Shown piece by piece: positions 17,919-44,897 of a stretch of 64,000 bases of DNA; positions within the stretch are counted from its first letter, which is position 1, and every line of letters begins with the position of its first letter. Origin of the DNA: Leeia speluncae (GTDB taxonomy: Bacteria > Pseudomonadota > Gammaproteobacteria > Burkholderiales > Leeiaceae). The notes below the pieces were generated by a model. That model did not search any database. It saw only the letters and a program-made list of their open reading frames with translations, and had not been told where the DNA came from. The position numbers and the translations under genes are program-made. The stretch spans positions 62,001 to 126,000 of the forward strand of contig NZ_JAJBZT010000005.1 in assembly GCF_020564625.1 (NCBI RefSeq). Direction: 5' to 3'.

Positions 17919-18297
17919 GAAGTTCGCCAGACAATCGCTGCCAATGTTTACATTGGGGGAGGAAAGTCCGGGCTCCGTAGGGCAGGATGCCGGCTAACGG
18001 CCGGGCGTTGAAAGACGACGGAAAGTGCAACAGAGAGCTGAACCGCCGATGGCCTCGAAAGAGGATCAGGTAAGGGTGAAAAGGTGCGGTAAGAGCGCAC
18101 CGCAGTCGTGGCAACATGTACTGGCAGGGTAAACCCCATCCGGAGCAAGACCAAATAGGCAGGCGTTGAAGGGGCCCCCCGAGTCTGCGGGTAGGTTGCT
18201 TGAGCCTGTTAGCAATGACAGGCCTAGAGGAATGATTGTCAGTTTAATGTGTCGTAAGATGCATTGAATTACAGAACCCGGCTTATCGGCGAACTTC
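17919..18297 (+). ncRNA. rnpB: RNase P RNA (class A)
   Basis: Catalytic RNA that matures tRNA 5' ends. The ends pair as helix P1: GAAGTTCGCC at 17919-17928 with GGCGAACTTC at 18288-18297. Universally conserved blocks are present: GAGGAAAGTCCGGGCTCC near 17958, ACAGAGAGC-type text after the P5-P7 region, and the terminal ACAGAACCCGGCTTATCGG near 18270. Size (about 379 nt) is normal for a bacterial type A RNA. A T-rich stretch follows from 18296. Short open frames on the opposite strand here are not genes. Confidence 0.97.
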
Positions 18298-18384
18298 TTT
18301 TCCTTTTTCATTGAGTCGCTTCTATTGCCTTCAATAGGCATTCTCATGCAGACTCAAGGTTTTGACCAACAGAATCCTATCTTC

Positions 18385-33294: not shown

Positions 33295-34731
33295 GTGCCG
33301 CAGTTTATTCATAAATATCGCTTAGCATTAATTGTTAGTTTACTGCTGCTAGCTGGGTTTGCACTCCGCACATTTTTTGTTTATCAAAACTCTCGTCACC
33401 AAATTCGCGAAAGTATTATCGAGCAAGGCTTACCGCTCACTGGCGATACGATTTACTCCGAAATCAATAAAGATATTTTACGTCCTATCTTTATTTCTTC
33501 ACTGATGGCACACGATACGTTCTTAAAGGACTGGATCATCAATGGAGAGGGGGACGTGACACAAATAAACCGTTATTTAAAAGAAGTAAAAGATAAATAC
33601 GGAACAGTGAGTAGCTTTTTTATTTCAGAAAAGACCCGCCGCTATTATTACGGCAATGGCGTGTTAAAAACCATTAGTGAGAAGGATCATCACGATGTTT
33701 GGTATTTCAGAGCACGTGCGATGAAAACCGACTACGTGGTAGATGTGGACTCTGACGAAGCTAATCGTGGGCGGTTAACGGTCTTTATTAACCACAGAGT
33801 GGTCGATAGTAACGGCAAGTTTTTGGGGATTACCGGCGTTGGTCTTACGATTGATAAGATCGCTTCTTTTGTTCATGAATATGAAAAGCGCTTTAATCGC
33901 CATATTTACTTTGCGGATAAGCAGGGAAATTTAGTTCTGACCGGGGTTGGGCAACAACTCAAAAATATTTCAGGTCTTAGCAACTATGTTGGTACGATTT
34001 TATCCGCCGATAAAATGCGTGCACCACTCCGATTAGAATACGTAAAAAATCAGCACAATATGCTGTTAAACGTTCGCTACATTCCTGATTTGAGTTGGTA
34101 CTTACTGGTTGAACAAGATGAAACGGAAGCATTAGCAGGATTAAATCGCGACCTTGTTTTGCAAATGGCCACCAGCACGCCGGTGCTCCTACTCATTTTA
34201 GCCATCATCATTATTACGATTCAGAAGAACCAGAACCAATTAAATCATCTGGTTTCTACCGATGCGTTAACGGGATGTTTAAACCGTCACGCTTTCTTAG
34301 CGCGCATTCCTGCTTGGAAAAAACGTTTTCAACGAACATCGAAAGCGCCGCAAGTACTGTTAGTTGACCTTGATCACTTTAAAAATATAAATGATCAGTT
34401 TGGCCACTTAGAAGGGGATGCAGTGTTAAAGCACATCGCCCACTTGTTGCAAGAAGAAGCACACACGAATGAAATGGTGGTGCGCTGGGGTGGTGAAGAG
34501 TTTTTATTATTCCTTCAACGCCCAGATCAAGTGGAAGCAACAGCAGAAAGATTGCGTAAACGGATTGCCAGCCAAGAAATTCGCTTGGGTAGCCACCCCT
34601 TAAAAATCACAGCCAGTATTGGCGCAACAGAATGGCAAGCAGGTGAATCACTCGATCATGTAGTGGCTAGAGCAGATATTGCGCTATACGAAGCCAAACA
34701 TGGCGGACGTGATCAAGTCTGCGTTCGCTAG
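33295..34731 (+). CDS. Diguanylate cyclase with extracytoplasmic dCache-like sensor
   Basis: 478 residues from GTG 33295. TM helix at ~8-26, a ~250-residue periplasmic sensor region resembling a double Cache domain (YYYGNGVLKTISEKDHHDVW, DVDSDEANRGRLTVFINHRV cited as separate pieces), a second TM at ~293-308, and a GGDEF domain at ~318-475. The active-site signature is GGEEF (RWGGEEFLLF), with metal Asp in LLVDLDHFKNIND, so synthesis of c-di-GMP is expected. The product-inhibition I-site (RxxD before the signature) is replaced by HTNE. It lies just upstream of the haem locus but is probably separate from it. Confidence 0.9.
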   Translation: MPQFIHKYRLALIVSLLLLAGFALRTFFVYQNSRHQIRESIIEQGLPLTGDTIYSEINKDILRPIFISSLMAHDTFLKDWIINGEGDVTQINRYLKEVKDKYGTVSSFFISEKTRRYYYGNGVLKTISEKDHHDVWYFRARAMKTDYVVDVDSDEANRGRLTVFINHRVVDSNGKFLGITGVGLTIDKIASFVHEYEKRFNRHIYFADKQGNLVLTGVGQQLKNISGLSNYVGTILSADKMRAPLRLEYVKNQHNMLLNVRYIPDLSWYLLVEQDETEALAGLNRDLVLQMATSTPVLLLILAIIIITIQKNQNQLNHLVSTDALTGCLNRHAFLARIPAWKKRFQRTSKAPQVLLVDLDHFKNINDQFGHLEGDAVLKHIAHLLQEEAHTNEMVVRWGGEEFLLFLQRPDQVEATAERLRKRIASQEIRLGSHPLKITASIGATEWQAGESLDHVVARADIALYEAKHGGRDQVCVR

Positions 34732-34786
34732 ATTAGACATGCCTTTTCCTTACAAAATTTAACTGCAAAAAAGTATTTATTTATAC

Positions 34787-34815
34787 TTGATAATGATAAT
34801 TATTATCATTACAAT
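34787..34815 (+). promoter_or_regulatory. hemP promoter with a Fur box filling the spacer
   Basis: TTGATA (34787-34792) and TACAAT (34810-34815) are separated by exactly 17 bases. A 19-base palindrome AATGATAAT-T-ATTATCATT (34792-34810) matches the Fur consensus and spans the whole spacer. Iron-loaded Fur bound here would block RNA polymerase. The last base of the -10 element is six bases before the hemP ATG, so the predicted start of transcription is the ATG itself. Confidence 0.85.
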
Positions 34816-34821
34816 AATCGC

Positions 34822-35022
34822 ATGAATACTTATCACCCTTCTATCGATGAGCTTGCAGCATCGGTTTCTCGTGCAAAAAACAATGGCGTAGAACAGCGCC
34901 ACCCCGCGCCTGTGTCTAGTACGCAATTGCTTGGCAAAGATGGCGTATTAGAAATATTGCATGATGGCCAGTTATATCTGCTAAGGAAAACCTCGACAGG
35001 TAAGCTCATTTTAACTAAGTAA
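34822..35022 (+). CDS. hemP: Haemin uptake protein HemP/HmuP
   Basis: 66 residues, first gene of the haem locus. The conserved C-terminal half is present: [20 protein letters not shown] then [15 protein letters not shown], the hallmark of HemP/HmuP. In Bradyrhizobium and Burkholderia the homologue is needed for expression of the haem receptor. There is one Met in the frame and no ribosome binding site before it; the Fur-controlled promoter ends six bases upstream, so a leaderless mRNA is likely. The TonB receptor gene follows after 66 bases. Confidence 0.9.
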
Positions 35023-35088
35023 TTTTTAACACACTATTCGCACAAGCCAGCCGCCGCCAGCCAGTGCTACCTGCAAAGGAAAGCAAGC

Positions 35089-37281
35089 ATGCCAACGATG
35101 ACCCGTTTGGCGATGGCACTAAGCATGGCTTGGGGAATATTGCCCGCCTATAGCGCTGATCAGCCAACTCCATCTGAAGATGAAACCGTTTTACTCAAAG
35201 AAGTGACGGTTACTGCGACACGTACCGCACGAAAAGTAGATAACGTCCCGAATACCGTCAGTGTCATTACCAAAGCACAGATCGATGAAAAAGGTGCGCA
35301 GAATGTAAAAGACATGCTCGAAGATGAGCTAGATGTGTCTGTGCGCAGTGCGCCAACCCGCTTTACTGCGGCGGGTGCATCAACAGGACGGGCAGGTAAC
35401 GAGAGCGTCAATATCCGCGGGTTAGAAGGCAACCAAGTGCTGATGATGGTGGATGGGGTTCGTTTACCGAATAGTTTCTCTTTTGGATCGATGGCGACAT
35501 CTAGAGCGGATTTTATCGATATTGAAGGGTTAAAAGCCGTAGAAGTATTGCGTGGCCCGACTTCTACCCAATTTGGTAGCGATGGATTAGCAGGCGCGGT
35601 TAGCTTTAGAACGTTAGACCCAAGTGATGTACTGAAGAAAGATCAAACACTTGGTGGTTATATCAAGACAAGTTACGCCAGCATTGATCAATCGCTAAGC
35701 ACAACAGCGGCGGTTGCCGGCCAAAATGAAGATTGGCAAGGTTTACTAGTGACCAATTATCGTAAAGGTCATGAAACCGAGAATATGGGCAGCGATAATA
35801 GCCAAAACAGTAACCGCACAGCAGCAAACCCGGTGGACTATGATAGCCAGTATGTGCTTGGGAAACTGAAGTATCGCGTCAATGCAGCCAACCAATTAGG
35901 TATTGCGTTTGAAGATCTAAAACGCGATCAAGAGACTGAAGTGTACTCTGCCCGTGCGGTCACAGCGAGTGCGTCAACTAGCGTGATTGATACCGATGCG
36001 ACCGACCACACTAAGCGTCAACGCGTTTCGATCGAACATCAATTTAGTGATGTGAATGCCCCTTGGTTCCAAAAAGCGGAAACCAAACTGTATTGGCAAA
36101 AAGCAGAAGTGAATCAATTCACTACCGAAGATCGCTATACGGCAGCAGATCGCACGAGAGATAACCATTACAAGCAAGATGTTGTCGGGATTTCTAGCTT
36201 ATTTGAAAGCAATTTAAGTGGTGCCGTTAACCAGCGCTTAACCTATGGTTTTGATTGGAGCCAATCGAACCTGTCTAGTTTACGTGATGGAACCGTGGCG
36301 CCGGCTGGTGAAACCTTCCCAAGCAAACCCTTTCCAGATACAAAATACACCCTAGCAGGTGCCTTTATTCAAGATGAAATTGAATTAGGTAAGCTAAGCA
36401 TTATCCCTGGCTTACGATTTGATTCGTACCAGCTAACCCCTTCATCCTCTGGCTATACCGGTACTATTGTTAATTTATCTGATCAAGCGGTAACGCCAAG
36501 ACTAGGGCTTATTTGGAAACTCGACCCAGCCTTCTCGCCTTATTTGCAAGTCGCCAAAGGCTTTAAAGCGCCGACACCAGACCAAGTGAATACCTCGTTT
36601 AGCAATCCGACCTATGGCTATACCAGTGTCGGTAACGCCAATCTAAAAGCGGAACGCGTCAATAGCATTGAGCTGGGTTTACGCGGTAAGACAGATCAAT
36701 TCCGTTATTCGGTGTCCGCCTTTGATAACCGCTACAAAGACTTTATTAGTCAGCAAGTAGTAAGCGGTTCTGGTACGTCGGCAGACCCGAGTGTTTATCA
36801 GTACATCAACCTAGCCAATGCCCACATTCGCGGCCTAGAAGCACGCACTGAATGGAATCTCACTGATAAATGGTCGATGAATGCTGGCTTTGCCTATGCC
36901 AAAGGCGACAGTACAAGCGGAAGCACCACCACCCCACTCGATAGCATTAATCCACTAAAAGTGGTTTGGGGTATTGGTTACGATGCCGGCACGTATGGTG
37001 GTAAAGCAACCATCACACATAGCAAAGCGAAGAAGGCGAATGAAGTAGGTTCCGTAAATGGAAGCGCCCAATTTACCACGCCCGCTTACACCATTATGGA
37101 CCTTTCCCTCTACTGGAAGCCAAGCAAACAACTAACCTTCAATGCCAACTTAAACAACGTGTTTAACAAGAAATACTGGCGTTGGTCGGATGCTAGGGGC
37201 TTAACCGCGAATAGTAGCGTCATTGATGCGTATACCGCTGCCGGACGTAATTTTGTCGTCACGATGAAGTATGACTTCTAA
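35089..37281 (+). CDS. TonB-dependent haem/haemoglobin receptor
   Basis: Outer-membrane receptor, 730 residues, with a signal peptide (1-22, ending YSA). TonB box region DETVLLKEVTVTATRT comes next. The plug domain (about 45-165) has NVKDMLEDELDVSV, NIRGLEGNQVLMMVDGVRLP and VEVLRGPTSTQFGSDGLAGA (20 residues). The rest is a 22-strand barrel ending in FVVTMKYDF with terminal Phe. It fits the TonB-dependent haemoglobin/transferrin/lactoferrin receptor family. AAGGA precedes the ATG. Position between hemP and the haem degradation/transport genes supports haem or haemoprotein as ligand. Confidence 0.92.
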   Translation: MPTMTRLAMALSMAWGILPAYSADQPTPSEDETVLLKEVTVTATRTARKVDNVPNTVSVITKAQIDEKGAQNVKDMLEDELDVSVRSAPTRFTAAGASTGRAGNESVNIRGLEGNQVLMMVDGVRLPNSFSFGSMATSRADFIDIEGLKAVEVLRGPTSTQFGSDGLAGAVSFRTLDPSDVLKKDQTLGGYIKTSYASIDQSLSTTAAVAGQNEDWQGLLVTNYRKGHETENMGSDNSQNSNRTAANPVDYDSQYVLGKLKYRVNAANQLGIAFEDLKRDQETEVYSARAVTASASTSVIDTDATDHTKRQRVSIEHQFSDVNAPWFQKAETKLYWQKAEVNQFTTEDRYTAADRTRDNHYKQDVVGISSLFESNLSGAVNQRLTYGFDWSQSNLSSLRDGTVAPAGETFPSKPFPDTKYTLAGAFIQDEIELGKLSIIPGLRFDSYQLTPSSSGYTGTIVNLSDQAVTPRLGLIWKLDPAFSPYLQVAKGFKAPTPDQVNTSFSNPTYGYTSVGNANLKAERVNSIELGLRGKTDQFRYSVSAFDNRYKDFISQQVVSGSGTSADPSVYQYINLANAHIRGLEARTEWNLTDKWSMNAGFAYAKGDSTSGSTTTPLDSINPLKVVWGIGYDAGTYGGKATITHSKAKKANEVGSVNGSAQFTTPAYTIMDLSLYWKPSKQLTFNANLNNVFNKKYWRWSDARGLTANSSVIDAYTAAGRNFVVTMKYDF

Positions 37282-37295
37282 GTTAGGAGGGAAAG

Positions 37296-37865
37296 ATGGG
37301 ATCGATTCTAGATTTAGCCGTTTTTAAAAAAGAGTGCGATGCGTTTCCGTCGCAGTTTGCTAGCCTGCAGCTCGCCACCGTCAGCGCTTCTGGTGAGCCA
37401 GAGGCAAGCTATGCACCTTTCGTTGAGAAGGATGGAAGATACTACATTTTTGTGAGTGAACTGGCGGCACATACCCACAATCTGCGTCATCACCCGCAAT
37501 GCAGTGCGCTATTTATTGAAGACGAAACCAGCGCCAGCCATGTGTTTGGCAGAAAACGGCTGACGCTTTCTTGCGAAGTGACCCATTGTCCGAGAGACGA
37601 AGCAAAATTTGACGTCGTACTCAATGCATTTGAAGAAAAGTTTGGCCGCTTTATCGAAGTACTTCGAAAACTAGCGGATTTTCATCTGTATGAATTACAA
37701 CCGGTTCGCGGTGCATTTGTGGCCGGATTTGCCAAGGCCTTTGTACTAGAAGGCAATGGACTTTCTGAGTTCCGTCATCGCAATGAAGTGGGACACCAAA
37801 CCACTGGCAAAGCACATCAGTCTGAAATGGACGCACTCGCTGCGCCCAATAGAACTGCGCACTAG
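37296..37865 (+). CDS. HugZ/HutZ-family haem utilisation protein
   Basis: 189 residues of the split-barrel (pyridoxamine-phosphate-oxidase-like) fold. HutZ and HugZ bind haem and degrade it to release iron. Visible are FPSQFASLQLATVSASGEPE (20 residues) near 17 and the conserved C-terminal GAFVAGFAKAFVLEG near 145, followed by HRNEVGH with histidines in the area that ligates haem in HugZ. AGGAGG gives a strong start 15 bases after the receptor stop. It lies in a haem operon, which makes the oxidase-like fold a haem enzyme rather than PdxH. Confidence 0.85.
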   Translation: MGSILDLAVFKKECDAFPSQFASLQLATVSASGEPEASYAPFVEKDGRYYIFVSELAAHTHNLRHHPQCSALFIEDETSASHVFGRKRLTLSCEVTHCPRDEAKFDVVLNAFEEKFGRFIEVLRKLADFHLYELQPVRGAFVAGFAKAFVLEGNGLSEFRHRNEVGHQTTGKAHQSEMDALAAPNRTAH

Positions 37866-37875
37866 GAGTAAGGTC

Positions 37876-38958
37876 ATGACGAATAGAGAAGCGGATTTAG
37901 TGATTCGTGTCGCGGCCTTAAAGCAATCTACCGGCAAACGTTATATCGAAGTGGCCGCAGAACTTGGCTTAAGTGAAGGTGAAATGATCGCAGCTCACCA
38001 GCAACTGCCATCGGATATGAGTGCATTATCTAGCCAAGCGTTATTACCGCGCTGGTCTGAGATTATTCAAGCATTAGAAAGCGTGGGGGAAGTTATGGCG
38101 CTAACCCGCAACCCCGCTTGCGTTCATGAAAAAACCGGCGTCTACCAATTGAAGTCGAATGAATCGACACATATTGGCTTGGTGATTGGAACTGAAATTG
38201 ATCTGCGCCTCTTTTATAAAGAATGGGCGTATGGTTTTGCAGTGACCGATCAGTCCGGCAAAACAGAACAAATTAGTCTGCAATTCTTTGATCATCAAGG
38301 CGTGGCCATACACAAAGTGTATTTAAAACCGACAAGTAATCGGGAAGCTTTTTTTACGTTGGTTAGCCGTTTCCAAAGTGCAGAAAAACTCGTCTTACCA
38401 CCGAAGGCAGCCCTGCAACCAGTTGCCAAAATAGATGCGCCCGATGATCGGATTGATATAAATGGATTTAGAACTGCCTGGCGTAGCCTACGCGACACCC
38501 ATGAGTTTTTTGGCTTACTCAAGCAATTTGGCGTGAGCCGAACACAAGGATTACGCCTAGCCGAACCGGAGTTTGCACAAGCGGTCGATAAATCGAGCAC
38601 CCATCAGATTTTAGAAAGTGCGGCGAGCCTAGGTATCGAAATCATGGTGTTTGTGGTTAACCACGGTGTGATCCAAATTCACACAGGTACGGTGACGAAA
38701 ATTGCGGTAATGGGACCTTGGCTAAATGTGTTAGATCCGGGGTTTAATCTTCATCTAAGAGAAGACCTGATTGCGAATAGTTGGGTCGTTCGTAAACCCA
38801 CCGTTGATGGTTTAGTCACCTCTCTAGAAATTTATGATGAGGCAGGCAATGTCATTGCTATGTTTTTTGGTGCGAGAAAACCCGGCAAGCCTGAGCGTTG
38901 TGAATGGCGTCGTCTGATTGATGGGTTACTAGAGGAGAGCACCTCATGCGCGGCTTAA
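37876..38958 (+). CDS. hemS: Haemin-degrading factor HemS/HmuS
   Basis: 360 residues from ATG 37876 (TAGGAG upstream); the frame runs further back into the hugZ gene but that is not the start. The protein is two repeats of the HemS fold (about 1-175 and 190-350): GEVMALTRNPACVHEKTGVY in the first, and MVFVVNHGVIQIHTGTV with WLNVLDPGFNLHLRED in the second. HemS-type proteins carry cytoplasmic haem and, in ChuS, split it. It overlaps hmuT by 13 bases. With the HugZ-like protein it gives the operon two candidate haem-handling proteins. Confidence 0.9.
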   Translation: MTNREADLVIRVAALKQSTGKRYIEVAAELGLSEGEMIAAHQQLPSDMSALSSQALLPRWSEIIQALESVGEVMALTRNPACVHEKTGVYQLKSNESTHIGLVIGTEIDLRLFYKEWAYGFAVTDQSGKTEQISLQFFDHQGVAIHKVYLKPTSNREAFFTLVSRFQSAEKLVLPPKAALQPVAKIDAPDDRIDINGFRTAWRSLRDTHEFFGLLKQFGVSRTQGLRLAEPEFAQAVDKSSTHQILESAASLGIEIMVFVVNHGVIQIHTGTVTKIAVMGPWLNVLDPGFNLHLREDLIANSWVVRKPTVDGLVTSLEIYDEAGNVIAMFFGARKPGKPERCEWRRLIDGLLEESTSCAA

Positions 38959-39863
38959 AGACTCCTGCGACGCTCCCCCGCTTAGATCGCAGAAGCTTAC
39001 TGCAATATGGCGGAGCCATCAGCTGTTTAACCCTATTGCAACCGCTGACAGAGGCCTTAGCTGCCGGAGCACGTTTGCCCAGTCGTGTTGTGTCGATTGG
39101 TGGCGCATTAACGGAAATGGTGTATGCCTTGGGTGCAGCACCACAGCTAGCCGGGGTGGATACCACATCGCTATTTCCTCAGGCCGCGACGAAATTGCCA
39201 AGCGTTGGTTATGCGCGTGCATTGTCGGTTGAAGGCATTTTATCACTCGCGCCGGATCTTATTTTGGCAACAGAAGATGCGGGCCCTCCCGATGTCATTC
39301 GCAAATTACAATCGGCCAAAGTCAATGTAGCGATTTTACCCGCTAACCATCAATTTGAAGGCATGCTTACCCGCTTCCAAGCGGTAGGCAAATTACTTGG
39401 CAAAGAGGCGCTCGCCAACAAACAGATTCAACAGCTAAAAGCCGACTGGGCGGCTGCGCGCACTCAGATTACTACGGGAACGAGAAGTAAAAAGAAAGTC
39501 TTGTTTGTGCTATCTCACGGCCCTAGCCAGATCATGGTAGGAGGCAAGGAAACCAGTGCAGATGCCATGCTGGACTATGTGGGCATGGACAATGCGATGG
39601 GGAATGTAAGCGGCTATAAGCCCATGACAACCGAAGCCGTCATCGCGGCACAACCAGATATTGTGTTATTTACCAGCCAAGGCTTATCCGCGATTGGCGG
39701 GGTAAATGGCGCATTAAAACTGCCTGGTATTGCTCAGACGCCGGCGGGGAAATCGCAACGGATAGTGTCCCAAGAAGCAATGTTAATGCTTGGGTTTGGA
39801 CCAAGGATGCCGCAAGCGCTTCAAGCACTGGATCAAGTGCTTCAACAATCATTAAAGGCGTGA
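38946..39863 (+). CDS. hmuT: Haemin ABC transporter substrate-binding protein
   Basis: 305 residues, class III periplasmic binding protein. The N-terminal region (RRSLLQYGGAISCLTLLQPL, 20 residues) has a twin arginine followed by a hydrophobic stretch, so it may use Tat or Sec export. The mature part starts RVVSIGGALTEMVYALG, the conserved opening of HmuT, with YARALSVEGILSLAPDLILA near 95 (a tyrosine in this region ligates haem in HmuT/PhuT). GAGGAG precedes the ATG inside the end of hemS. It delivers haem to HmuUV. Confidence 0.92.
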   Translation: MRGLKTPATLPRLDRRSLLQYGGAISCLTLLQPLTEALAAGARLPSRVVSIGGALTEMVYALGAAPQLAGVDTTSLFPQAATKLPSVGYARALSVEGILSLAPDLILATEDAGPPDVIRKLQSAKVNVAILPANHQFEGMLTRFQAVGKLLGKEALANKQIQQLKADWAAARTQITTGTRSKKKVLFVLSHGPSQIMVGGKETSADAMLDYVGMDNAMGNVSGYKPMTTEAVIAAQPDIVLFTSQGLSAIGGVNGALKLPGIAQTPAGKSQRIVSQEAMLMLGFGPRMPQALQALDQVLQQSLKA

Positions 39864-39866
39864 GCC

Positions 39867-40919
39867 ATGCGAGTAGAAGTGATGCAGCGACTATCGCTAC
39901 TGCACTGGTTAAAACTCTCTCCGTGGGCAAGCCTTAGTCTAATGACGCTATGCGCCATTCTCTTTGCCTTACAAGCAGGCGCAGTACCTGTCAGCTTCGT
40001 CGATTGGCAAGCGGGCTGGCAGCATCGCTGGGAGACACTCAACGGTAGCGCATACGTGCTATGGGAAATTCGTTTACCACGGATTTTATTTGCCCTACTG
40101 ATTGGTGCCGTGTTGGGGCTGTGCGGCACGCTAACGCAAGGGTTGTTTCGCAACCCTTTAGCGGACCCGGGTCTACTTGGCATCAGTAGTGGTGCCGCAT
40201 GTGCTGCCGCATTAAGTATCGTTTTCCTCTCTAATTTAGACAGTATTCCTTTTAGCTGGCGACCATGGTTACTACCAGCGACAGCCTTTATCGGGGCGGT
40301 TGGTGTTTGTTTATTGTTAGATCGGTTTAGCCATTGGCTAACCATGGGCTCAATTGCGGGCTTATTGCTGACGGGAATCGCGCTTAATGCGATTGCCGCC
40401 GCGATTCTGGGACTATGCACTTACTTAGCAACAGATGAACAATTACGCAGCCTTTCATTTTGGACATTGGGCTCATTAAGTGCGGCCAACTGGGTATTGG
40501 TAGGCGTCGTAGCGGTACTTCTGATAGGCAGCTTCTTTGCGGTGAAACACTTACTTTCCCAAATGAATGCGCTTGCCATGGGAGAAACCGTTGCCACCCA
40601 TATTGGCATCAATGTGCATCGCTTACGGTTAAAAGTAGTGTTGCTAGTCGCCCTACTCAGCGGGTTTGCAGTTGCATGGTGCGGCATGATCGGCTTTATT
40701 GGATTAATTGCTCCGCATTTAGTCAGAACATTACTTGGCGCAGACTTGCGTACATTAGCACCGCTATCGATGCTAATGGGTAGTGTCCTATTACTGATCG
40801 CCGATACGGCAGCAAGAACCCTCGTCATCCCCGCAGAAATCCCTGTAGGCACCTTTACCTCTTTATTTGGTGCTGCTTTTTTTCTTTCTTTACTCAATAG
40901 CCAACGAAAAATGAGGTGA
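39867..40919 (+). CDS. hmuU: Haemin ABC transporter permease
   Basis: FecCD-family permease of 350 residues with about ten hydrophobic helices. Motifs include IRLPRILFALLIGAVLGLCG near 72, LADPGLLGISSGAACAA near 108, and the C-terminal GMIGFIGLIAPHLVRTLLGA (20 residues) that contacts the ATPase. It begins three bases after the hmuT stop. Together with HmuV it should move haem across the inner membrane. Confidence 0.94.
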   Translation: MRVEVMQRLSLLHWLKLSPWASLSLMTLCAILFALQAGAVPVSFVDWQAGWQHRWETLNGSAYVLWEIRLPRILFALLIGAVLGLCGTLTQGLFRNPLADPGLLGISSGAACAAALSIVFLSNLDSIPFSWRPWLLPATAFIGAVGVCLLLDRFSHWLTMGSIAGLLLTGIALNAIAAAILGLCTYLATDEQLRSLSFWTLGSLSAANWVLVGVVAVLLIGSFFAVKHLLSQMNALAMGETVATHIGINVHRLRLKVVLLVALLSGFAVAWCGMIGFIGLIAPHLVRTLLGADLRTLAPLSMLMGSVLLLIADTAARTLVIPAEIPVGTFTSLFGAAFFLSLLNSQRKMR

Positions 40920-40922
40920 GAC

Positions 40923-41738
40923 ATGAGAGAGTTAGCCAATACATCACCGCCAATTTTGGCAGTCGACAATGTCGGCGTATCGCTTGGTAATGCCACCTTT
41001 GGCCCATTTCAGTTTTCAGTCAGTCGCAAGGAAAGAATCGCCATCATTGGTCCAAGTGGTGCCGGAAAATCGACCCTTCTGAGTTTGATTAGCCGCGAGC
41101 GTCTAAAGGGAGAAGGTCAACTCTTCCTGCACCAGCAAGCCATTGAAGACTACTCTCTTGCCGAACTTAGTCAGATCCGTGCGGTACTGCCCCAGCAACA
41201 TGATGTTGCCTTTGGTTTTGAGTGTAAGTTAATTGTTCAGTTAGGACGGGTCAGTAAACGGTTTGATCCGCAGCTTGGCAAGATTGTCCAATCCGCAGCG
41301 AAGCTAGCCCAAGCAGAGCATTTGCTTAATAGACGATTTGACTCTCTCTCTGGCGGGGAAAAAGCGCGCATCCATCTTGCCCGAGTGTTTGCCCAACTTT
41401 GGGATGTGGAAGGCGGATTGCTATTAGTGGACGAACCGTTGTCCGCACTCGACCCGGGGCTACAGTTATCACTCATGGCGAGTATTCAGCAATTTGTTGC
41501 CGAGCGTGAGCATGGTCTAGTCGCCATCTTGCACGATATGAACCAAGCTATTCAGCACTTCGACCAGATACTGATGATTCAATCGGGTCAGCAATTTGGG
41601 TATTTGCCGGCGTCACCCCTCATTCGCCCCGCCTTAGAAACGCTATACGGCATTCAGTTAGAAACTGCCCTCTCGGAATCTGGCACTAGTCTCTTAGTGC
41701 CAAAGGAAACTCGGCATATGAGCGAGTTAGCCGCATGA
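40923..41738 (+). CDS. hmuV: Haemin ABC transporter ATP-binding protein
   Basis: 271 residues. Walker A GPSGAGKSTLL near 41, Q-loop VLPQQHDVAF near 85, signature LSGGEKARIHLARVFAQL near 140, Walker B GGLLLVDEPLSALD near 165, and the switch histidine in VAILHDMNQA near 200. A GAGGTGAG site lies before the ATG, three bases after the hmuU stop. Its stop overlaps the tonB start by four bases, so the transport and energising genes are coupled. Confidence 0.94.
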   Translation: MRELANTSPPILAVDNVGVSLGNATFGPFQFSVSRKERIAIIGPSGAGKSTLLSLISRERLKGEGQLFLHQQAIEDYSLAELSQIRAVLPQQHDVAFGFECKLIVQLGRVSKRFDPQLGKIVQSAAKLAQAEHLLNRRFDSLSGGEKARIHLARVFAQLWDVEGGLLLVDEPLSALDPGLQLSLMASIQQFVAEREHGLVAILHDMNQAIQHFDQILMIQSGQQFGYLPASPLIRPALETLYGIQLETALSESGTSLLVPKETRHMSELAA

Positions 41739-42619: not shown

Positions 42620-42647
42620 GATAATGAGAATGATTATTACAATCATT
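42620..42647 (+). promoter_or_regulatory. Overlapping Fur-box motifs upstream of the siderophore receptor
   Basis: GATAATGAGAATGATTATT at 42620-42638 matches most of the 19-base Fur consensus. It overlaps AATGATT-ATTAC-AATCATT at 42629-42647, a perfect inverted repeat. This arrangement suggests iron repression of the receptor gene 49 bases downstream. The promoter elements themselves are unclear. Confidence 0.75.
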
Positions 42648-42695: not shown

Positions 42696-44897
42696 ATGAA
42701 CTCGCACAAGCCCATTTTTCCCCTTTCCATTTTAGTCGTTGCACTATCAGCGGCCTTTAGCCAGGCTGCATTTGCAGACACAACAACCCCATCTGCGGAA
42801 AACCCTCAGCTAATGGAGACCATTGTTGTTAACCCAAGTGCTGATGCGTCTGCTGAAGGGTTAGTTGCTCCCTATGCAGGGGGGCAAGTCGCCAGAGGAG
42901 GAAAAGTGGGCATTTTGGGGAATCAAGACATCATGGAAACCCCTTTTTCAACAACCGCTTATACCAGCGAGTTAATTCAGGATAAACAAGCCAAAAGCGT
43001 TGGCGATGTCTTGCAAAATGATGCCAGCGTTCGCGTTGCTAGAGGATATGGCAACTTCCAAGAATCTTATGTGATTCGTGGCTTTAGTTTGTATTCAGAT
43101 GATATTGCCTATAACGGGCTATATAGCCTATTGCCTAGGCAGTACATTGCAGCAGAATTATTTGAACGTGTCGAAGTACTTCGTGGGGCATCTGCCTTTC
43201 TAAATGGTGCCGCGCCTGGCGGGAGCGGTATCGGCGGCGCAATCAACTTGCTGCCTAAACGTGCCGGCAATGAAGACTTAAATCGCATCACCACCAGTGT
43301 GTCTACCGGAGGGCAAACCAGTGTGGCTGCGGATCTTTCTCGCCGGTTTGGTGAAGATAAATCGATGGGCATACGCTTAAATGCCGCTCATCGCAGTGGC
43401 GACACCGCAATTGCCAATGAAAACAGCACACTCAATGTGGCTTCTATCGGCCTAGACTGGAGAAACGATCACGCACGCCTATCTGCAGATATTGGTTGGC
43501 AAGAAAATTTATTAAAAGCCCCTCGCCCTAATGTCACGCTAGGATCTAGTGTGACAATCGTCCCTGCTGCGCCAGATAGCAGCAGTAACTATGCACAACC
43601 ATGGAGTTACTCAAACGAAAGAGATGTATTTGGGACTGTCCGTGGCGAATACGACCTAAGCGACCAATTAACTGCGTGGGGTGCATTAGGCATGCGACAA
43701 AGCAATGAAAGCAACTCGCTTGCCAACCTAACCGTGAATAGTAATGACGGTAGTGGTACCGTTTATCGATTCGATAATACCCGCAAAGATAACATCCTAA
43801 CTGGAGAGGCTGGCATTAGAGGCAATCTAAATACAGGTAGCATTGCTCATGAATGGACTGTTGCGACTAGTTTTTTCCATCAGGAAACCAGCAATGCCTA
43901 TGCAATGGACTATAACAACACACTCGCAACGAACTTGTACTCGCCAACTACCTATGCACAACCAGGTTTTAGCGGCAGCACCTACTATGGCAACCAGCTT
44001 GCAAACCCAGAAAAAACCGCCGAAACCAATCTATTTAGCTTGGCGATTGGAGATACCCTCTCTGCGTTTGATGACAAGTTAAAAGTCACACTAGGCGCAA
44101 GACAGCAGCAAATCAAGGTGGCCAACTGGGCCTATACTACCCATGCACCACAAGCCACATACGATAAGCAACGGTTAAGTCCCCTGACAGGCGTCGTCTT
44201 CCGCGTGACCCCATCTACCTCACTATACGCTAATTATGTAGAGAGCCTTGCGCAAGGCCCAACCGCCCCATCAGGCACCACCAATGTCGGACAAATGTTC
44301 GAACCATATGTCTCTAAGCAAAAAGAAATTGGCGTGAAATGGGATACCGGTAGCACAGGCGTGAGTTTGGCAGCTTATTCAACCACCCGCCCTCGCGGTT
44401 ATACCAATGCGAGCAATGTCTATGCCATTAGTGGGGAGAATCGTCACAAAGGTGTCGAACTGAATTGGTGGGGCGAACCCAAAAAAGGAATTCGCATCTT
44501 AGGTGGGTTGACCTATACCGATGCCCGTCAGATGGCAACCGGCTCAAGTAGTACGGAAGGCAAACAAGTGATTGGTGTCGCCAAACATCAGGCGACGATT
44601 GGTGCAGAATGGGATGTACCAGGGGTCTCTGGCCTGACACTGGATGCACGAGTAACCAAAGTAGGCAGTAGCTATGCCAACACCAGCAACACGCTCAAAG
44701 TCCCTGGATGGACACGTCTAGATTTGGGGGCTCGTTACATTACAGAAATAGGCGGAAAGCTCACCACATGGCGCCTTCGTCTAGACAATGCGACGAATAA
44801 ATCTTACTGGGCATCCGTTGGTGGCGCATCAGACGCTGGTTACCTAACGGCAGGCGCGCCAAGAACACTTACGCTATCTGCGAGTATGGAGTTCTAA
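42696..44897 (+). CDS. TonB-dependent siderophore receptor
   Basis: 733-residue outer-membrane receptor. Signal peptide of about 27 residues (ending AFA), TonB-box-like LMETIVVNP, and a plug domain with VGDVLQNDASVRVARGYGNF (20), ESYVIRGFSLYSDDIAYNGL (20) and VEVLRGASAFLNGAAPGGSG (20). This is the pattern of ferric-siderophore (FhuA/FpvA/FepA-like) receptors. The barrel ends in TLSASMEF with terminal Phe. The plug motif FLNGAAPGGSGIGG is typical of hydroxamate or catecholate receptors, but ligand choice is not readable. No siderophore synthesis genes lie here, so a foreign siderophore is likely. Confidence 0.92.
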   Translation: MNSHKPIFPLSILVVALSAAFSQAAFADTTTPSAENPQLMETIVVNPSADASAEGLVAPYAGGQVARGGKVGILGNQDIMETPFSTTAYTSELIQDKQAKSVGDVLQNDASVRVARGYGNFQESYVIRGFSLYSDDIAYNGLYSLLPRQYIAAELFERVEVLRGASAFLNGAAPGGSGIGGAINLLPKRAGNEDLNRITTSVSTGGQTSVAADLSRRFGEDKSMGIRLNAAHRSGDTAIANENSTLNVASIGLDWRNDHARLSADIGWQENLLKAPRPNVTLGSSVTIVPAAPDSSSNYAQPWSYSNERDVFGTVRGEYDLSDQLTAWGALGMRQSNESNSLANLTVNSNDGSGTVYRFDNTRKDNILTGEAGIRGNLNTGSIAHEWTVATSFFHQETSNAYAMDYNNTLATNLYSPTTYAQPGFSGSTYYGNQLANPEKTAETNLFSLAIGDTLSAFDDKLKVTLGARQQQIKVANWAYTTHAPQATYDKQRLSPLTGVVFRVTPSTSLYANYVESLAQGPTAPSGTTNVGQMFEPYVSKQKEIGVKWDTGSTGVSLAAYSTTRPRGYTNASNVYAISGENRHKGVELNWWGEPKKGIRILGGLTYTDARQMATGSSSTEGKQVIGVAKHQATIGAEWDVPGVSGLTLDARVTKVGSSYANTSNTLKVPGWTRLDLGARYITEIGGKLTTWRLRLDNATNKSYWASVGGASDAGYLTAGAPRTLTLSASMEF

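Follow-up and report, generated by a model that had tools for sequence, protein, structure and literature searches.

The heme uptake locus and its first gene

The 64,000-nt stretch of Leeia speluncae DNA that was analysed, referred to here as the window, contains a heme uptake locus on the forward strand whose first gene is hemP (34822..35022), encoding a protein of 66 aa. In a profile search, residues 31-66 of this protein match PF10636 at 52.1 bits against a cut-off of 25, and the gene sits beside heme receptor and heme transporter genes, the location characteristic of the HemP/HmuP family. Against PRK10183, an NCBIfam equivalog that forms a narrower group inside PF10636 and that we take to stand for YdiE, it scores 55.9 bits, short of the cut-off of 77. 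The protein is a HemP relative that falls outside this equivalog. A weak second PF10636 match is present in the same genome (G000:C6:94031-94117; L054), within a 419-aa frame and barely above the cut-off at 25.9 bits.

Following hemP on the same strand is a TonB-dependent heme/hemoglobin receptor gene (35089..37281; TIGR01785 and TIGR01786 both above cut-off), preceded by the SD-like sequence AAAGGAAAG (35075-35083, recognised by eye). The gap between the two genes carries CAAGCCAGCCGCCGCCAGCCAG (35043..35064, forward strand), which resembles the motif termed HPRE that is described before chuR of C. violaceum; two GCCAGCC units, at 35046 and 35056, are similar to the published site, and the motif lies 24 nt before the receptor ATG, compared with 26 nt for the HPRE before chuR (PMC9131926). 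The remainder of the locus (37296..41738, forward strand) encodes a PNPOx-fold protein (start 37296), HemS (37756), a periplasmic binding protein (38946), a FecCD permease (39867) and an ATPase (40923). In its listed form the HemS open reading frame shares about 110 nt with the end of the gene before it, so the true HemS start is probably further in. At gathering scores, Rfam gave no match near hemP; elsewhere in the window, positions 17919-18301 hold a class A bacterial RNase P RNA (321.7 bits).

A predicted Fur-overlapped promoter abutting the hemP start codon

Upstream of hemP, the nearest gene, which encodes a GGDEF protein, ends at 34731, 90 nt ahead of the hemP ATG. By direct reading and by promoter scan, the best promoter in this interval consists of a -35 hexamer TTGATA (34787..34792), a 17-nt spacer (34793-34809), a -10 hexamer TACAAT (34810..34815) and the 6-nt discriminator AATCGC (34816..34821), all on the forward strand. 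The arrangement is the one described in an earlier note on this DNA, in which the promoter ends six bases 5ʹ of the ATG at 34822. The conventional +1 is the A of this ATG, and the C at -1 with the A at +1 fits a pyrimidine-purine start. Because the -10 ends 6 nt before the ATG, the 5ʹ end of the hemP mRNA is predicted to coincide with the A of the start codon or to lie 1-2 nt from it, making hemP a candidate leaderless cistron.

The promoter matches 10/12 consensus positions and is the best of seven promoter-like sites in 3 kb; since 6.2 such sites are expected by chance, the match by itself is weak evidence. The scoring matrices hold E. coli values. The window has 2402 ATGs on its two strands, and that of hemP alone attains its promoter score (12.8) at a gap of 5-8 nt from the -10; dinucleotide shuffling of the 90 nt ahead of the ATG produced an equally good promoter at this gap once in 2000 trials.

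The same note had found no Shine-Dalgarno (SD) sequence and no other Met in the frame, and both observations hold. The SD pairing energy at hemP is +2.8 kcal/mol, compared with a mean of -2.8 at the first starts of 62 long open reading frames in the window; M1 is the sole Met, and the open frame upstream of it contains no ATG, GTG or TTG. The gene has two sequence features of leaderless mRNAs, an AUG start and a -10 in the place of an SD (gap 6). In the predicted fold of the leaderless form, the first 21 nt are unpaired, an ordinary start structure that is not more open than those of shuffled sequences (z about 0).

Overlapping this core promoter, as expected of a Fur-repressed promoter, is the Fur box GATAATGATAATTATTATC (34789..34807, forward strand), which agrees at 18/19 positions with the classical Fur consensus and is the top Fur match of the window, scoring 27.6 where 29 is the maximum. 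A second register lies at 34795-34813 (score 19.3), and a 9+1+9 palindrome at 34792-34810 spans the spacer, in agreement with the earlier description of a 19-base Fur palindrome over its whole length. A second strong Fur box in the window (42620-42638, score 23.0) lies ahead of a TonB-dependent siderophore receptor gene (42696-44897; TIGR01783 above cut-off), whose ATG, unlike that of hemP, is 57 nt past its box.

Recurrence of the geometry across the order

Protein-only searches gave few relatives (12/60 genomes; one locus), so the Pfam profile was used instead. Of 399 genomes from the same order, taken to be Burkholderiales in GTDB's sense, 151 had a PF10636 match. The 151 hemP loci analysed are most, though not all, of the profile matches in the order. 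For each, the 260 nt ahead of the PF10636 domain were searched for the highest-scoring Fur box, and the best sigma-70 site overlapping that box was chosen, blind to the start codon; the gap was then measured between the end of the -10 and the nearest in-frame ATG lying 4 nt or more downstream. A Fur score of 9 and a promoter score of 8 were reached by 68 loci, termed scorable; among the other 83, 45 lacked a usable box or start, and in 38 no more than a weak promoter overlapped the box.

The scorable loci form two groups. The gap is 5-10 nt in 38 of the 68, with the mode at 6-7 (14 loci at 6, 16 at 7 and 6 at 8), and the remaining 30 have longer predicted leaders (gaps of 12-100, fullest around 30-35), a pattern that is stable over 12 threshold pairs. 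These counts are not independent, because the genomes are related; taking one locus per genus, which only lessens the non-independence, leaves 26 leaderless-type (gaps 6-9) versus 23 leadered. Leaderless-type loci span 16 families, or 15 families and 37 loci without L156 of family f8, a doubtful call because an equal-scoring promoter lies at gap 36. Every locus taken from families f1, f5, f11, f21 and f51 is of this type. Two loci of family f43, L102 and L140, have a leaderless look through another box (gaps 6 and 9, in a looser listing that takes gaps down to -2); they were counted as weak promoters, outside the 68.

That the ATG beside the -10 is the real start is suggested by its reading frame: at gaps of 5-9, it is in frame with hemP 37 times and out of frame once. 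Moreover, 29 of the 38 leaderless-type loci have no other in-frame ATG before the domain, and 12 of the 38 have no other in-frame ATG, GTG or TTG there at all. Strong SD sequences (-4 kcal/mol or lower) occur in 0/38 leaderless-type and 8/30 leadered loci, and the mean SD energies are +0.53 and -2.24 kcal/mol, respectively (Mann-Whitney p = 7e-5). The -1 base is C or T in 34/38 leaderless-type versus 20/30 leadered loci (p = 0.03). Absence of an SD proves nothing alone, since families f15 and f34 have hemP genes without a clear SD behind apparent leaders of about 30-45 nt.

Within the genus, genome G001 (locus L052) has TTGCAT-17-TATCAT-7-ATG and no SD. Its best match to the receptor is only 36 percent identical, and a third genome of the genus, G002, gave no PF10636 match. 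By eye, the Fur repeat reaches about one hexamer nearer the ATG in the window than in G001, and the distance from -10 to ATG stays at 6-7; in these two sequences, such constancy despite a shifted repeat fits selection on that distance. The earlier note had named a ribosome site and later start codon conserved in close relatives as evidence against a leaderless start; the comparison instead found no SD in G001, the same geometry in 38/68 loci and no strong SD in any of those 38.

The geometry is scarcer outside the order, where it was found in 2/19 scorable loci compared with 38/68 inside (Fisher p = 5e-4). This outside set comprised 50 loci plus E. coli ydiE, of which 47 gave a result and 19 passed both thresholds; one member, L218, actually belongs to the order and is below the thresholds. 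The two positive loci, L207 (gap 8) and L247 (gap 6), suggest either separate origins or an older trait.

The geometry also appears to set hemP apart from other genes behind Fur boxes. Among 16 such genes with a good promoter, drawn from the loci found for the own-genus genomes G000-G002 and 11 other genomes of leaderless type, none had leaderless geometry; in this control, the open reading frames were picked mechanically and only two hemP loci were recognised among its loci. One of these Fur-box genes, L188, comes from the same genome as the window and carries an SD of -11.8 kcal/mol. HPRE-like pairs show no tie to the leaderless class, being present at 16/43 loci with gaps of 5-10 versus 21/63 others, with gap class assigned by the start-blind rule and no promoter cut.

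The promoter elements and their spacing, the lack of an SD and, in relatives, the recurrence and the frame constraint are direct observations. Judged by sequence comparison, a leaderless hemP under Fur gating seems to be a design that recurs in about 15 families and is specific to this gene.

Alternative promoters and starts

Another promoter, TTAACT-17-TATACT (34759..34787, forward strand), lies further upstream and could be the working one. Fur would then bind downstream of its -10, over the +1, and hemP would have an AU-rich, SD-less leader of about 28 nt and be translated by unstructured-leader initiation. In its favour are its 9/12 consensus positions and 11.2 bits, and the hemP genes of f15 and f34 that have apparent leaders without a clear SD, where the Fur box has a TATAAT at its upstream edge. 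It nevertheless scores below the leaderless promoter (11.2 versus 12.8) and has no equivalent in G001, where the second-best hemP promoter is TTGTAA-17-GAAAAT; what recurs in the 38 loci, moreover, is the spacing between -10 and ATG. We consider this reading unlikely.

Less probable still is a very short leader of about 5-10 nt, near-leaderless in function, made from TTTATA-18-TATCAT (10.4 bits, predicted leader 6 nt) or from a TATTAT -10. TATCAT is the commonest -10 among leaderless-type relatives and serves as the -10 in G001, but in the window it has a poor -35 and a longer spacer, and it ends 12 nt short of the ATG, a spacing that only one of the 68 loci shows. The rival promoters, TTAACT-17-TATACT and TTTATA-18-TATCAT, could act alone or jointly with the main promoter. 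Translation from the GTG at codon 31 or from a non-standard codon, with the ATG incidental, is very improbable: the open frame does run 30 codons further upstream, and hemP starts are error-prone, as S. meliloti HmuP proved 14 aa longer than annotated (PMC10117765), but that extension consists of the Fur box, the GTG has no SD ahead of it (by eye), and the 37 to 1 in-frame bias argues for the adjacent ATG.

A model for leaderless, Fur-gated expression of hemP

The comparative sequence evidence supports the proposal, first made for this locus in the earlier note, that hemP is read from a leaderless, Fur-gated mRNA. Probably, a Fur-gated promoter of the sigma-70 type yields a leaderless hemP message read from its 5ʹ-terminal AUG, with the receptor cistron leadered and bearing an HPRE-like site. 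When iron is present, Fur would lie across the spacer between -35 and -10 and shut out RNA polymerase, as suggested by the position of the box and by the regulation of chuP-lacZ by Fur in C. violaceum (PMC9131926). When iron is absent, the promoter would open, giving a heme-locus mRNA, presumably co-transcribed, that lacks a leader. Its first cistron, hemP, may then be read by the 5ʹ-terminal-AUG pathway, with initiation of the 70S type; in E. coli, a 5ʹ-terminal AUG is able to bind 70S ribosomes and initiate translation (PMC4965119), and AUG alone serves as a 5ʹ-terminal start (PMC4611024). The next cistron, encoding the heme receptor, would have an ordinary leader, and HemP made from the leaderless cistron may act on that leader at CAAGCCAGCCGCCGCCAGCCAG, given how closely this motif resembles the HPRE before chuR.

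The earlier suggestion of a direct coupling between iron control and start-codon use through leaderlessness fits only in part. A missing leader would alter how the message is translated; it would leave iron sensing as it is, with transcription gated by Fur in the usual manner. More tentatively, and with somewhat less than even confidence, leaderless hemP may be a selected trait over much of the order, retained as the Fur repeat and -10 shift, and one that distinguishes hemP from the other members of the Fur regulon. The effect would be translation from a 5ʹ-terminal AUG and escape from leader-acting controls, such as iron-sparing sRNAs or HPRE-type regulation, while the target receptor keeps its leader.

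Relation to known systems

Leaderless mRNAs and Fur promoters are each well known, but their conserved combination at hemP was not found in the open-licence literature, nor was any report of a leaderless hemP. Two experimental parallels come from B. cenocepacia. In strain J2315, transcription of 72 genes starts exactly on the start codon and that of 42 others within 10 nt of it, and 24 of these transcripts are tRNAs; like hemP, the leaderless genes have an AT-rich promoter motif directly upstream instead of an SD (PMC4603805). The main text of that report does not mention hemP or BCAL2297, and its account describes no Fur-controlled leaderless gene (PMC4603805). At B. cenocepacia hemP/brrF, as here, a 19-nt Fur site lies directly upstream, and the transcription start was mapped there by differential RNA-seq; that locus differs in hosting the sRNA BrrF, and the published description gives no leader length and makes no leaderless claim (PMC7377471).

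The C. violaceum chuPRSTUV operon, too, begins with a hemP-type gene; its HPRE stands before the receptor gene, and co-transcription and control of the promoter by iron and Fur are reported there; it differs in that the account of the operon gives no transcription start and does not use the word leaderless (PMC9131926). Like hemP, E. coli ydiE (PF10636; L233 4570-4616) has a Fur box near its ATG, an A/T-rich stretch and no SD, but its promoter is weaker (7.7 bits) and the predicted gap of 15 places it outside leaderless geometry by the gap rule.

Proteobacterial leaderless genes usually come to light singly when start sites are mapped; the leaderless geometry of this one small regulator spans about 25 genera, with leadered cousins as a built-in control. 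Together, leaderless and leadered hemP would make a clean test case for why a gene drops its leader and whether this affects translation under iron starvation. The geometry also carries a warning for annotation, since a gene whose promoter abuts its ATG and that has no SD is easily mis-started. At one further hemP locus, L025 (reverse strand, G190), an in-frame ATA occupies the leaderless position by eye, possibly as an AUA start or a decayed start; the earliest standard start codon there, a GTG, lies at a distance of 34 nt from the -10.
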